Assembly: GCF_002257665.1 (NCBI RefSeq)
Contig: NZ_MQWB01000001.1
Coordinates: 1,021,651-1,074,488, forward strand
Length of the DNA stretch: 52,838 nt
Direction of reading: 5' to 3'
DNA from: Rubricoccus marinus
GTDB lineage: Bacteria > Bacteroidota > Rhodothermia > Rhodothermales > Rubricoccaceae
The translations under genes were made by a program, and so were the position numbers. Position 1 is the stretch's first letter, and every line of letters starts with the position of its first letter. Shown in pieces: positions 10,646 through 15,966 of the stretch. The notes under the pieces were generated by a model. The model had not been told where the DNA came from, made no database searches, and worked only from the letters and a program-made list of their open reading frames with translations.

Positions 10646-11365
10646 GTGATTGTCGCCATTGACGGCCCAGCCGGGTCCGGCAAGAGTACTACCGCGCGGC
10701 GCGCTGCACAACGGTTGGGCGGTCTGTATCTGGACACAGGCGCGATGTTTCGAGCGATCGGACTCGCCTTCCTGGACCAGGACCAGCCGTTTACCGATGC
10801 CGCCGCCGCTGTCCTCGTGCCGTCCCTGACGGTCGAACTCGATCCCCATCCCGATACCTCGGCGCTGACGGTTCGGCTCAACGGCGACGACGTCACAGAA
10901 CGGATCCGGTCGGGACCGGCCGCGCAAGCGGCTTCCCGCGCGGCCTCGTTGGGCCCGGTCCGGGACGCCATGCTGCGCTCGCAGCGCGCCGTCGCCGCCG
11001 ATTGGACCTCGCACGGCCGCGCCGTGGTCGCCGAAGGGAGGGACATGGGCAGCGTCGTTTTTCCCGACGCCCCGGTCAAGTTCTTTTTGATCGCTGACAT
11101 CGAGGCCCGCGCCCAGCGCCGCGCTGCCGATCTCGCCGCCAGAGGCGAAACCGCAGACGTGGACCAGGTGCGCGCGGAGATCGCCGAGCGCGATCGCCGG
11201 GACCAGAACCGCGCCCTCGCCCCGCTCCAGGCCGCGCCAGACGCCATCGTGCTCGACACGACCGCGCTGACGCCCGAGGAGCAGGTCGAGCGCGTCGTCC
11301 AGACCGTCCGCACCGTCCAGAAGGCCCAGGCCTCTGGCGAGACGGACGCCGACGCCTCGTCGTAG
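10646..11365 (+). CDS. cmk: Cytidylate kinase
   Basis: Phosphorylates CMP and dCMP in pyrimidine nucleotide metabolism. 239 residues, normal for the family. The P-loop GPAGSGKST is at residues 7-15 directly after the N-terminal strand (MIVAIDG), which fixes the GTG start at 10646. LYLDTGAMFRAIG and GRDMGSVVFPDA are family signatures for substrate binding, and the lid region has RRAADLAARGE. The next gene is rpsA; cmk-rpsA is a very common bacterial gene pair (also in E. coli), which supports both calls. The 142-bp gap before rpsA lacks the dispersed repeat. Confidence 0.96.
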   Translation: MIVAIDGPAGSGKSTTARRAAQRLGGLYLDTGAMFRAIGLAFLDQDQPFTDAAAAVLVPSLTVELDPHPDTSALTVRLNGDDVTERIRSGPAAQAASRAASLGPVRDAMLRSQRAVAADWTSHGRAVVAEGRDMGSVVFPDAPVKFFLIADIEARAQRRAADLAARGETADVDQVRAEIAERDRRDQNRALAPLQAAPDAIVLDTTALTPEEQVERVVQTVRTVQKAQASGETDADASS

Positions 11366-11507: not shown

Positions 11508-14159
11508 ATGGCTGACGACAAGACCACACCCGTCGAGGAGACCTCCGAGACGACCACTCCCGAGAACGAGGCGCCCGCCACCGCTCCCGAGGAGACGCCC
11601 GCCGCCTCTGGCGACGGCGCGACCGCAGACGCGCCAGAGGCCGCCGGCGAGGAGAGCCTGATCGAGCGCGCCACCGGCGCCGCCAAGAAGGCCGCCGCTG
11701 CCGCTGCCGACGCCGTCGAGGACGCCGCTGAAGCGGTAAGCAAGACGGCCAAGTCCGTCGCAGACCGCGTCGAGCACGCGGTTGAGGACACCGTGGAGCG
11801 CGTGCGTGGCGAGAAGCCCGCTGCATCAGCGGCCTCTGGCGATGGTGCCAACGCGCCCATCACCGGCTACACCGGCCTCAACCTCGGCCGCACGATCACG
11901 CTCGACGAGCTCAACAGCATGGACTCCGGCGCCAGCGGCGACGGCGTGCAGCTGAGCGACAACGACTTCATCTCCATGGTCGACAGCTCGATGAGCGACG
12001 TCGACGAGCACTCGCTCACGACCGGAACGGTCGTCGGGATGACGGACAAGGAGATCGTCGTCGACATCGGCTTCAAGTCCGATGGCGTCGTCGCGAAGAA
12101 CGAGTTCAACGAGGTCCCCGAGATCGGCGAGGAGATCCAGGTCTACGTCGAGTGGCTGGAGGACCGTCGCGGTCAGCTCAGCCTCTCGCGCAACAAGGCC
12201 ATCGACCGGATGCGCTGGGACATCATCGAGGAGGCCCACGAGAACGGGACCGTCCTCGAGGGTGAGATCGTCAAGCGCATCAAGGGCGGCATGATCGTCA
12301 ACCTGCTCGGCTCGGAGGCCTTCCTCCCGGGCTCCCAGGTCGACGTGCGCCCCGTCCGCGATTTCGAGGCGTACCTCGGGAAGACGATGGAGTTCAAGGT
12401 GGTCAAGACGAACCCCCAGAACGGCAACGTCGTCATCTCGCACAAGGCCCTCGTTGAGAAGGACCTCATGGAGCAGCGCAAGCTGATCCTGGACTCGCTC
12501 GAAGTCGGACAGGTGCTCGAGGGCACGGTCAAGAACATCGTCAACTTCGGCGCCTTCGTCGACCTCGGCGGCGTCGACGGCCTGCTCCACATCACCGACA
12601 TCTCGTGGGGCCGCGTCGGCCACCCGAGCGAGGTGCTGGAGCTCGACCAGAAGATCAAGATCGTGGTCCTGGACTACGACAAGGAGCGCCAGCGCATCTC
12701 GCTGGGCTACAAGCAGCTCCTCGGACACCCGTGGGACAACATCCACGAGCGTCTCACCGAGGGCATGGAGCTCGACGGCAAGGTGGTCTCCATCACCGAC
12801 TACGGCGCCTTCGTGGAGCTGGAGCGCGGTATCGAGGGCCTCGTCCACATCTCCGAGATGTCGTGGACGGAGCACGTCAAGCACCCCACCCAGCGGGTCC
12901 AGCTTGGTCAGGCCGTCCAGGTCAAGATTCTCAAGATCGACGACGACGACAAGAAGATCAGCCTCGGCATGAAGCAGCTGGAGCCCGACCCGTGGGAGGG
13001 CCTCCTGTCTCGCTTCCCCGTCGGCACGGTCACGCGTGGCAAGGTGCGCAACATCACCACCTTCGGCGCCTTCGTGGAGCTGGAGCCCGGCATCGACGGC
13101 CTCGTGCACGTCTCCGACCTGAGCTGGACGCGCCGCGTCAAGCACCCGTCTGAGGTGGTCAAGAAGGGCCAGGAGCTGGATGTCATCGTGATCGACATCG
13201 ACGTGGCGAACCGCCGCATCTCGCTCGGCCACAAGCAGGTGTCCACCGATCCGTGGAGCCAGTACGCCGACGTGTACGCCGAGGGCTCCGGGACGACCGG
13301 AACCGTCACGGACACCAACGCCGGTGGCGTTGTCGTCGAGCTCCCGCTCGGCGCCGAAGCGTTCATCCCGGCCTCGCACCTGGCCCGCCAGGGCAACCCG
13401 GGCGACGCCTACGCCGCTGGCGACGAGCTGGAGCTGACGGTGATCCGCCTCGACCGTGAGGATCGCGAAATCGTGTGCTCTGAGACGGCCCAGCGCCGTG
13501 CCGCCGAGCGTGCCGAGCAGCACGCCGAGCGGATGGAGAAGACGAAGAAGATCCAGGAAGAGCGCCGCGCTGTTAGCAACTACCAGCGTGCGGCCTCTGG
13601 CCCGGCAACCCTCGGAGAGCTCTCCGGTCTGGCCGCCCTGCGCGCTCAGATGGAGGAGGCCGAGGCCTCGGGCGAGCCGTCCGAGTCCGAGTCGAAGGCC
13701 GTCGAGGCTGAGCAGCCCGAAGAGGGCGAGCTCACCCCGACCGTCTCGTCCGCTGCCAGCGACCTGGAAGGGTCCGTTGGAACGGGCAACCGGAGCGAGG
13801 ACGAGCCGACGATCGGCGAGGAGGCTACGGCTCAGCGTCCGCAGGAGCAGGGGGCAACCCCGACCTCGGAGAAGAGCCAGGCCGCCGTCAAGAGTGGTGA
13901 CCTCCAGACCGAGGGCGTTGCAGGCGAAGTCGAAGCCGCTGTCGAGGACGAGACGCCGAACACGGCCGACGCCAAGACCGACATCGACCGCGTCAACAGC
14001 ACCGAGGAGTCCCCTGAGGTCCCCGACGTGCTGAGCAAGACCACCAGCGACATCGTGGGCGACGCCAACGACGAAGCCGGTGAGTCCGCCGAGATGGGCA
14101 AGGCCGACGTGACGGTCAAGGGCGACGACGCCGAAGATGTCGCGGACAAGGCCGAGTAG
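11508..14159 (+). CDS. rpsA: 30S ribosomal protein S1 with long N- and C-terminal extensions
   Basis: 883 residues against about 560-600 for typical S1. Six S1/OB RNA-binding domains begin near residues 171, 246, 334, 418, 505 and 592. The middle three are the most typical (for example VNFGAFVDLGGVDGLLHI and ITDYGAFVELERGIEGLVHI). S1 binds mRNA leaders on the 30S subunit. The first 160 residues are Ala/Glu/Thr-rich with a charged amphipathic-looking helix (about 55-105), and the last 220 residues are strongly acidic and probably disordered. The dispersed 9-bp word occurs several times in the N-terminal extension (ASG, PEA) and just after the last S1 domain, but not in the S1 domains themselves. 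A clear terminator follows. Confidence 0.95.
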   Translation: MADDKTTPVEETSETTTPENEAPATAPEETPAASGDGATADAPEAAGEESLIERATGAAKKAAAAAADAVEDAAEAVSKTAKSVADRVEHAVEDTVERVRGEKPAASAASGDGANAPITGYTGLNLGRTITLDELNSMDSGASGDGVQLSDNDFISMVDSSMSDVDEHSLTTGTVVGMTDKEIVVDIGFKSDGVVAKNEFNEVPEIGEEIQVYVEWLEDRRGQLSLSRNKAIDRMRWDIIEEAHENGTVLEGEIVKRIKGGMIVNLLGSEAFLPGSQVDVRPVRDFEAYLGKTMEFKVVKTNPQNGNVVISHKALVEKDLMEQRKLILDSLEVGQVLEGTVKNIVNFGAFVDLGGVDGLLHITDISWGRVGHPSEVLELDQKIKIVVLDYDKERQRISLGYKQLLGHPWDNIHERLTEGMELDGKVVSITDYGAFVELERGIEGLVHISEMSWTEHVKHPTQRVQLGQAVQVKILKIDDDDKKISLGMKQLEPDPWEGLLSRFPVGTVTRGKVRNITTFGAFVELEPGIDGLVHVSDLSWTRRVKHPSEVVKKGQELDVIVIDIDVANRRISLGHKQVSTDPWSQYADVYAEGSGTTGTVTDTNAGGVVVELPLGAEAFIPASHLARQGNPGDAYAAGDELELTVIRLDREDREIVCSETAQRRAAERAEQHAERMEKTKKIQEERRAVSNYQRAASGPATLGELSGLAALRAQMEEAEASGEPSESESKAVEAEQPEEGELTPTVSSAASDLEGSVGTGNRSEDEPTIGEEATAQRPQEQGATPTSEKSQAAVKSGDLQTEGVAGEVEAAVEDETPNTADAKTDIDRVNSTEESPEVPDVLSKTTSDIVGDANDEAGESAEMGKADVTVKGDDAEDVADKAE

Positions 14160-14183
14160 CCTCTGGCGCTCAGACAAGACCAG

Positions 14184-14215
14184 GCGGCGGTCTCTTCGGA
14201 GGCCGCCGCTTTTTT
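14184..14215 (+). terminator. Rho-independent terminator of rpsA with UUCG tetraloop
   Basis: An 11-bp GC-rich stem (GCGGCGGTCTC with GAGGCCGCCGC, one G-T pair) is closed by a TTCG loop and followed by six T residues. It is the clearest intrinsic terminator in the window, 25 bases after the rpsA stop. Confidence 0.92.
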
Positions 14216-14255: not shown

Positions 14256-14273
14256 GCCTCTGGCGCCAGAGGC
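14256..14273. repeat. Dispersed 18-bp palindrome GCCTCTGGCGCCAGAGGC
   Basis: Perfect copy in the gap between the rpsA terminator and the eRF1-like gene. Confidence 0.95.
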
Positions 14274-14336: not shown

Positions 14337-15431
14337 ATGATCTCCGCCGGCGCCCTCCGTCAACTCTCCGACCTCGTCGGTCCCGAACGCGCGTTCCTGA
14401 CGGTGTACCTCGACGCGGGCGATGACCGCTCGGTCCTCGACTCCCGCTTTGCCCGCATCCGCTCACTTCTGGCGGACCAAGAAGAGGAGACCGAGCATTT
14501 TGAAAAGAGCCTGGACATCGCCAGAGGCCTACTGGACGAGAACCGTGCGCCCGAGGGCGGGGCGCTGGTCATCTTCGCGAGCTGGGGCGCCGACCTCGCG
14601 GTGGCCTATCCGCTCCCCGTACAGGTCGGCAGCCGGGCGTGGATGGGAGACGCGCCGTACGTGCGCCCCGCCTACGAGCTCTTGGACGAGCACGAGACGT
14701 TCGCCGTAGCCGTGGTCGACAACACGCGCGCCAAGATCTACCTCGTGGCCTCTGGCGAGGCGGAGCAGGAGGGGAGCGTTCGCGGCGACGTTAAGAACAG
14801 TGTTAAAAAGGGCGGCTGGAGCCAGAAGCGCTACGCGCGGCGGCGCGAGAAAGAGCTGAGCGTGTACGCGCAGAGCATCGCGGACAGCCTCGTCGAGTTG
14901 GATGCCGAGCGCCCGTTCGCCCGCCTCGTCCTGCTGGGCTCGGAGGAGACCGCGCTGGCGGTCAAGGGCGCGCTCCGGTCCGACCTCGCAGACAAGCTCG
15001 TCGCGATGGACGTGGCCGAGACCGATGCGCCAGAGGCCCAGTTGATGAAGCAGGCCACGGATCTCTCCGACGAGGCCGAGCGCGAGGAGGAAGAAGGCCT
15101 CTGGCGCGAGATCCGCGAGCAAGGTCTGAGCGGAGCGCTCTCTGCGTTCGGGCCGGTTTCGGTTCTGGACGCGCTACGGGCCGCGCGCGCCGAGGCGATT
15201 TTGTTGGACCGTGAGGCCGAGATCGGCGGGACGAAGTGCCGCGCGTGCGAGCACGTCGTCTACGGCACGCCCGAAACGTGCCAGCGGTGCGGCGCCTCCG
15301 ACGTGTTTGCCGTCGACCTCACCGAGGTTATCACCGAGCACGCCGCCCGGACCGGCGCGAGCGTGGACTTTGCCGACCCGATGGAGCCTCTCTCGGAGGC
15401 CGGGCACGTCGCCGCTCTTCTCCGCTATTGA
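14337..15431 (+). CDS. Bacterial archaeo-eukaryotic release factor (eRF1/Vms1)-like protein with zinc ribbon
   Basis: 364-residue protein resembling the bacterial relatives of eRF1/Pelota/Vms1 (baeRF/VLRF1 families). The middle domain holds VKKGGWSQKRYARRREKE, with GGWSQ at residues 159-163 occupying the place of the catalytic GGQ or GGxxxQ loop of peptidyl-tRNA hydrolysing factors. After an alpha/beta domain (LVLLGSEETALAVKGAL) comes a zinc ribbon with Cys301, Cys304, Cys315 and Cys318. The N-terminus (LVGPERAFLTVYLDAG) matches the usual opening of these proteins. Suggested role: ribosome rescue or peptidyl-tRNA hydrolysis, inferred and not established for this family. It lies between rpsA and a lipoprotein gene whose ATG starts two bases after its stop codon. 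Confidence 0.75.
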   Translation: MISAGALRQLSDLVGPERAFLTVYLDAGDDRSVLDSRFARIRSLLADQEEETEHFEKSLDIARGLLDENRAPEGGALVIFASWGADLAVAYPLPVQVGSRAWMGDAPYVRPAYELLDEHETFAVAVVDNTRAKIYLVASGEAEQEGSVRGDVKNSVKKGGWSQKRYARRREKELSVYAQSIADSLVELDAERPFARLVLLGSEETALAVKGALRSDLADKLVAMDVAETDAPEAQLMKQATDLSDEAEREEEEGLWREIREQGLSGALSAFGPVSVLDALRAARAEAILLDREAEIGGTKCRACEHVVYGTPETCQRCGASDVFAVDLTEVITEHAARTGASVDFADPMEPLSEAGHVAALLRY

Positions 15432-15432
15432 G

Positions 15433-15966
15433 ATGCGTCGCGCGTGGGTGCCTCTGGCGCTGATCGTACTTCTCGCCAGCGGCTGCCTGGCCACGCATCC
15501 GGTCGTGGCCCCGCCCGCCTCCGAGCCCGCGTTTCGGCCGGAGGTGTTCTTCCTCGGCCACACGAGCGGTATCGGGACGCTCACGTTCCGCAACGGCTTC
15601 CCCAAACGCGTGCGCGTGCAGAGCGTCGGCACGCCTCTGGCGGACGGGACGTTCCAACTGGACCAGACCATCACGATCGCGGGCGAGGCGCCAGAGGATC
15701 GAACGTGGATCATGCGGCCTCAGAGCCCGGCGCGGTACACGGCTTCGCTGACGGACGCTACCGGTGAGGCCGAGATCACCGTCGAGGGATCGCTGCTTCG
15801 CATCCGGTATCTGCTCGCGAAGCCGGACATCCGTATGGAGCAACGCCTTTACCTGGAGCCGGACGGGCGGGCGGCGCTCAACCTCGCGACGGTCCGCTTT
15901 CTCGGCATCCCGATCGCGCGGCTTCAGGAGCGGATCACGCGCAGGTCTTCGCCTCCAGAGCGATAG
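15433..15966 (+). CDS. DUF3833-like lipoprotein
   Basis: 177-residue predicted lipoprotein, lipobox LLASGC (Cys18). The mature part (VFFLGHTSGIGTLTFRNGF near residue 44, then a repeated beta pattern) resembles the lipocalin-like DUF3833 family, whose function is unknown. The ATG at 15433 follows the stop of the eRF1-like gene by two bases, so translation is probably coupled, although a functional link is doubtful. The longer open frame upstream (from 15211) overlaps that gene and is ignored. The perfect palindrome at 15967 begins immediately after the stop codon. Confidence 0.7.
   Translation: MRRAWVPLALIVLLASGCLATHPVVAPPASEPAFRPEVFFLGHTSGIGTLTFRNGFPKRVRVQSVGTPLADGTFQLDQTITIAGEAPEDRTWIMRPQSPARYTASLTDATGEAEITVEGSLLRIRYLLAKPDIRMEQRLYLEPDGRAALNLATVRFLGIPIARLQERITRRSSPPER

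Follow-up and report, generated by a model that had tools for sequence, protein, structure and literature searches.

A strictly conserved GGWSQ loop marks a candidate peptide-release factor of baeRF family 10 among the relatives of Balon

The open reading frame (ORF) at 14337..15431 (+ strand) of the window, by which we mean the whole 52,838-nucleotide stretch of Rubricoccus marinus DNA analysed here, encodes a three-domain eRF1-fold member of a known protein family, baeRF family 10 (baeRF-10; PF18854). From comparison of its sequence with those of its relatives we read it as a stop-codon-independent peptidyl-tRNA hydrolase or rescue factor of the ribosomal A site, and give this reading a probability of about 0.5. 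By analogy with the structures of Balon, Rv2629, Msmeg1130 and eRF1, the tRNA-shaped protein would fill the 70S A site independently of stop-codon recognition by a NIKS motif, and its GGWSQ loop would go into the peptidyl-transferase centre. There Q163, two residues past the usual GGQ glutamine, is the putative residue that admits water to the P-site ester; freeing the nascent peptide from stalled ribosomes would be its putative rescue role. The clade to which the protein belongs is a clean test for peptide release among Balon relatives, since it combines a conserved loop, a glutamine-less paralogue and archaeal relatives beside aRF1. If release is true, it adds a stop-codon-independent rescue pathway and suggests a release factor as the evolutionary origin of a ribosome sleep factor.

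The protein has 364 residues and an ATG start. A first-pass annotation had proposed this reading frame, with GGWSQ at residues 159-163 and four ribbon cysteines at 301, 304, 315 and 318, and each of these details was confirmed. The motif (14811..14825) lies within KNSVKKGGWSQKRYARRRE, and orthologues equal in length to the protein and 37-70% identical to it conserve both loop and cysteines, so the ORF, the loop and the cysteines are not products of chance. All features that follow are on the + strand. An N-terminal eRF1-like domain (residues 1-105, 14337..14651; from secondary structure) has no NIKS by motif counts. The middle, RNase H-like domain (residues 121-226, 14697..15014; from Pfam and the structural model) carries the catalytic-type loop and the start of a basic helix, delimited by column invariance as residues 153-170 (KNSVKKGGWSQKRYARRR, 14793..14846). 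The C-terminal Pelota-type domain (residues 233-364, 15033..15428; from the model, 3ir9 Z 11.5) contains the zinc ribbon CxxC...CxxC (15237..15290), which also proved to be a real feature: all four cysteines are kept in 21 of the 22 rows of the clade defined below.

Profile searches place the protein in the baeRF group of the eRF1/Pelota superfamily, as the first-pass annotation had expected, and specify family 10. PF18854 is the top Pfam match, far above its cut-off (80.5 vs 27.1 bits), followed by acVLRF1 (48.2 bits) and baeRF_family2 (43 bits), and it matches all 10 members of relative set A1 at E 0.01 or better. VLRF-1 is not the best family profile, the NCBIfam acVLRF1 model reaching 32.1 bits against a cut-off of 125; the NCBIfam aRF1 model gives 45.8 bits (cut-off, 234.7). 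Family 10 was singled out earlier as keeping the loop glutamine and possibly active (Burroughs and Aravind 2019, PMC6514570).

The main rival to the release reading is a Balon-like, non-catalytic ribosome binder: a hibernation factor in idle or stalled A sites, perhaps with EF-Tu, whose loop would hold A2602 and the CCA end and carry out no hydrolysis. We regard this as a real possibility, though at clearly less than even odds. Balon is a recently described ribosome hibernation factor whose homologues are widespread, and Msmeg1130 and Rv2629 lack the GGQ motif (PMC10901736). The best PDB sequence match of the window protein is the Balon Msmeg1130 (3.6e-8 alone, 2.2e-21 with an alignment), with aRF1 and eRF1 next, and the NCBIfam MSMEG_1130 model matches nearly its whole length at 5e-22. 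We nevertheless rejected Balon identity on the best PDB match alone, since the scores fall far below the cut-offs of the Balon models NF052287/8/9 (20.8 vs 330, 78.4 vs 480 and 58.7 vs 320 bits, the second being MSMEG_1130 and the third Rv2629).

The AlphaFold model, built from ten relatives (mean pLDDT 79.7, pTM 0.44), has good individual domains and an unsure relative domain placement. All three eRF1 domains are present, so that the absence of an eRF1 core, which the first-pass annotation had named as refuting, did not occur. With Foldseek and VIA-align the best matches, over residues 1-364, are the Balon structures 8v9l (Z 16.8) and 8v9j (Z 15.6), a top rank that again favours the Balon-like alternative; aRF1 and eRF1 structures reach Z of about 14, and residues 116-248 match the eRF1 middle domain 2hst at Z 10.7 (VIA-align). 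Vms1 does not appear among the structure matches listed for the model, an absence that carries no weight in either direction. The matches to Pelota structures are weaker (Z 12.8 or lower), which counts against another alternative, a Dom34/Pelota-like splitting or recycling factor that would enter the A site and separate the subunits, the loop being structural. The superfamily fold, including its C-terminal domain, and the want of a stop-codon motif would suit such a factor. The Dom34 loop, though, is poorly conserved (PMC6514570), whereas no part of the present protein is more conserved than its loop, and we think this explanation unlikely.

In the model a long helix (163-191) follows immediately on the middle-domain loop (residues 150-162), the arrangement seen for the GGQ loop of eRF1, and in HMMER the loop aligns gaplessly to KGGQSAQRFARLR of aRF1 (4af1) and to RGGQSALRFARLR of Schizosaccharomyces pombe eRF1. 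GGWSQ thus is the counterpart of the GGQ loop, as had been supposed, and the second outcome that the first-pass annotation had named as refuting, GGWSQ buried and out of line with the GGQ loop, is absent too. In this register W161 occupies the position of the GGQ glutamine and Q163 follows two residues later, giving the pattern GGxSQ. The description of the loop as non-standard holds only relative to GGQ: the literature gives GGxSQ as the signature of aVLRF-1 and acVLRF-1 (the Vms1 group being given the motif GxuQ; PMC6514570), and the pattern is common in the sampled baeRF-10 relatives.

Our first nine relatives were partly found with the peptide KKGGWSQK as one of the search patterns. Their agreement on GGWSQ was therefore set aside as evidence, and the comparison was repeated with profile searches of whole genomes, covering the order of the window and the phyla to which the Planctomycetes, Desulfobacteraceae and Acidobacteria relatives belong; these searches yielded close orthologues and a broader set. 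The window's clade, delimited in a tree built without the loop columns, comprises 22 sampled rows from five phyla (mean pairwise identity 43%), and GGxSQ is invariant in all 22. So are K153, N154, V156, G159, G160, W161, S162, Q163, R165, Y166, R168 and R170, making 12 invariant columns of 18 in residues 153-170, compared with 17 of 346 elsewhere; among the rows found without the loop-based seed search, 13 of these 18 columns are invariant. Outside the clade GGW[SA]Q is frequent and often replaced (GGWEGY, GTDHMRSQ, DGDQGRAG and others). Over the stretch corresponding to residues 128-185, rows that carry GGW[SA]Q measure 58-59 residues (sd 0.3) and those that lack it 55-83 (sd 4.7); the aRF1 value is 58. 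Narrow ranges of loop length are reported as the pattern of families with known or predicted activity (PMC6514570). NIKS occurs in none of the 22 clade rows, as against 19 of 19 aRF1 rows, which makes it improbable that the protein reads stop codons in that way. Since the loop is strictly kept, the protein probably still cuts, and would then be a rescue rather than a sleep factor.

Relatives of the protein also occur in archaea. One locus (L011, a 3.2-kb contig) comes from a Poseidoniales genome, whose phylum we take to be Thermoplasmatota. Matches were found in 129 of the 194 genomes of that phylum, about 43 of them strong (E below 1e-38), and most genomes with a strong match give a second, weaker one as well. 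We read 17 loci of the weaker type, and all are ordinary aRF1 with NIKS and GGQ; with two further rows they make up the 19 aRF1 rows, every one of which has both motifs. The 29 strong loci that were read (L158-L186) all have GG[WMC]SQ and the four cysteines of the zinc ribbon, their loop region is 58 residues long, and none has NIKS. Two of the archaeal proteins were scanned: Pfam assigns them to baeRF-10, and their aRF1 scores (124 and 115 bits) exceed that of the window protein. These archaeal relatives coexist with a normal aRF1 and are therefore not termination factors.

Residue 161 varies among the archaeal loci (W in 14, M in 11, C in 4), while G159, G160, S162, Q163, R165 and R168 are invariant in all 29 of them and in all 22 bacterial clade rows, although the limits of these groups came from search scores or from trees without the loop columns. 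In true aRF1 the residue aligned to Q163 is Q (12), A (4) or S (3). Fixation as Q thus coincides exactly with the absence of the GGQ glutamine, which speaks for Q163 having taken over a function.

Two careful trees were made with the loop columns excluded, rooted on 2 and on 19 aRF1 rows; L011 was omitted from the last because of its long branch. The archaeal GGxSQ rows are nearest the root in both, and the glutamine-less rows are nested inside the rest. Well-supported branches imply at least 6-7 state changes among the sampled rows, and the clade-defining tree has 8 changes of loop state when GGGQG-type strings are not scored as intact. Parsimony counts alone give no direction of gain or loss, and the direction is taken from the outgroup root. 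Rv2629 and Msmeg1130 are placed within the bacterial rows, but their branches are so long that their exact place is unsure. The simplest reading of these trees is that GGxSQ would be ancestral and the glutamine-less, Balon-like loops derived, probably several times. A broader scenario, which we offer tentatively, is that archaea and bacteria share in the GGxSQ proteins an ancient third A-site factor, independent of stop codons and with a shifted glutamine; Balons would be its decommissioned descendants, the glutamine having been lost several times, and genomes like that of the window would keep an active and a silenced version.

The same genome does encode a second baeRF-10 protein (C1:1853911-1855005, L138:4828-6006; 108 bits), without GGWSQ and without the zinc-ribbon cysteines, and a sigma-70-like ORF lies 40 bp upstream of its gene. 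We consider this paralogue a candidate Balon-type hibernation factor. Eight genomes of the window's order have a strong GGWSQ-type match, and in seven of them a second, weaker match accompanies it. The paralogue beside a sigma-70-like gene fits the Balon role better than the GGWSQ protein does. Loop comparison also tells against a Balon-like role for the latter, in that Balon and its mycobacterial homologues lack GGQ and the sampled glutamine-less loops vary greatly in length, whereas the GGWSQ clade keeps its loop without exception. Reading of the sequence and 10 Pfam scans showed no RaiA/HPF or stress gene next to the gene or at about 20 related loci, and the only HPF match of the genome (C1:2270961) is about 1.2 Mb away.

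For peptide release, then, would speak the invariance of Q163 and the flanking loop residues while residue 161 varies in archaea, the fixed loop length and the lack of NIKS. Against it, a tryptophan stands at the catalytic GGQ position, so the glutamine must act from a displaced position. Among full-length relatives of solved structure the nearest is, moreover, a hibernation factor without GGQ. The genome, in which HPF, NFACT and tmRNA were looked for, also encodes tmRNA and an RqcH-like NFACT protein, so that rescue is already served, and the conservation of the loop could be explained by rRNA binding as well. Our literature search found no biochemical test of baeRF-10 proteins with a GGWSQ-type loop.

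The gene lies directly downstream of rpsA (11508..14159, + strand; six S1 domains), which is preceded by cmk, read from the sequence as a nucleoside-kinase P-loop ORF at 10646. The rpsA product is long (883 residues), with long, acidic, low-complexity tails flanking the six S1 domains on both sides. Six of the seven genomes examined in the order, from two families, have the arrangement cmk-rpsA-gene, which might suggest co-expression with rpsA and a functional partnership with S1 or with ribosome synthesis. Between the two genes, however, lies an intrinsic rpsA terminator (14182..14211, + strand; 13-pair stem and T run), and an equivalent strong hairpin is present at the same place in 6/6 genomes with this gene order. 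The exception to this arrangement is a genome of the window's own genus, in which the gene adjoins lepA, and the inspected orthologues from other phyla have unrelated neighbours and do not show it. The adjacency to rpsA that had been pointed out is thus real, but conserved only at the level of the order and split by a conserved terminator, so that it does not imply a shared transcript. An operon with rpsA was rejected on these grounds. A lineage-level order with an insulating terminator gives the neighbourhood little functional weight, and a role as S1 partner seems to us very improbable. Directly after the gene, and possibly co-transcribed with it, ORF 15433-15966 encodes a DUF3833 protein (44 bits); locus L139 has DoxX instead of this neighbour.

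A feature of the window in its own right is the 10-mer GCCTCTGGCG, present in 172 copies on both strands of the 52.8 kb where 0.47 are expected (for example at 14159-14168, 14256-14273 and 15450-15459). The copies have sharp edges and a median spacing of 190 bp, and sometimes form an 18-bp palindrome; rpsA holds only three copies and the longest gap (2.3 kb). The 10-mer is dense elsewhere in this genome too (33 copies in the 11 kb of L138) and absent from the checked loci of the same family and order, including a genome of the same genus (G227, L037). It resembles the cyanobacterial HIP1, a highly iterated short sequence.

The family, the GGxSQ motif and the suggestion that family 10 could be active were already known (PMC6514570). 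What our computational comparison adds is the invariant clade spanning five phyla, the three-domain archaeal GGxSQ relatives in genomes with aRF1, and a probable direction of change towards Balon. With the rest of baeRF-10 the window protein shares the middle-domain profile, the three-domain layout and the conserved loop glutamine; it belongs to an invariant-loop clade within the family and keeps the four-cysteine zinc ribbon, in place of which many baeRF families carry a two-strand insert. The family is called bacterial (the bacterial aeRF-1 clade, PMC6514570), yet archaea also hold relatives. Balon, Msmeg1130 and Rv2629 share the three-domain fold and full-length homology with it and are its closest solved structures, but they lack GGQ (Msmeg1130 has AGQMREQ and Rv2629 AGWNGYG at the loop place) where it keeps GGxSQ, and Msmeg1130 does not keep its four cysteines. 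With the VLRF-1 clade (Vms1/ANKZF1, aVLRF-1 and acVLRF-1) it has the GGxSQ loop in common, as stated for aVLRF-1 and acVLRF-1 (PMC6514570). It scores lower on VLRF-1 than on baeRF-10 (48 vs 80 bits), and its model has both N-terminal and Pelota domains, whereas aVLRF-1 has no Pelota domain and acVLRF-1 no stop-codon domain. It resembles aRF1 and eRF1 in fold, in the place of the zinc ribbon, in the GG-S-R-[FY]-R pattern of loop and helix and in loop length; it differs from them in having no NIKS, a tryptophan at the GGQ glutamine, and an aRF1 score of 46 bits against a cut-off of 235.
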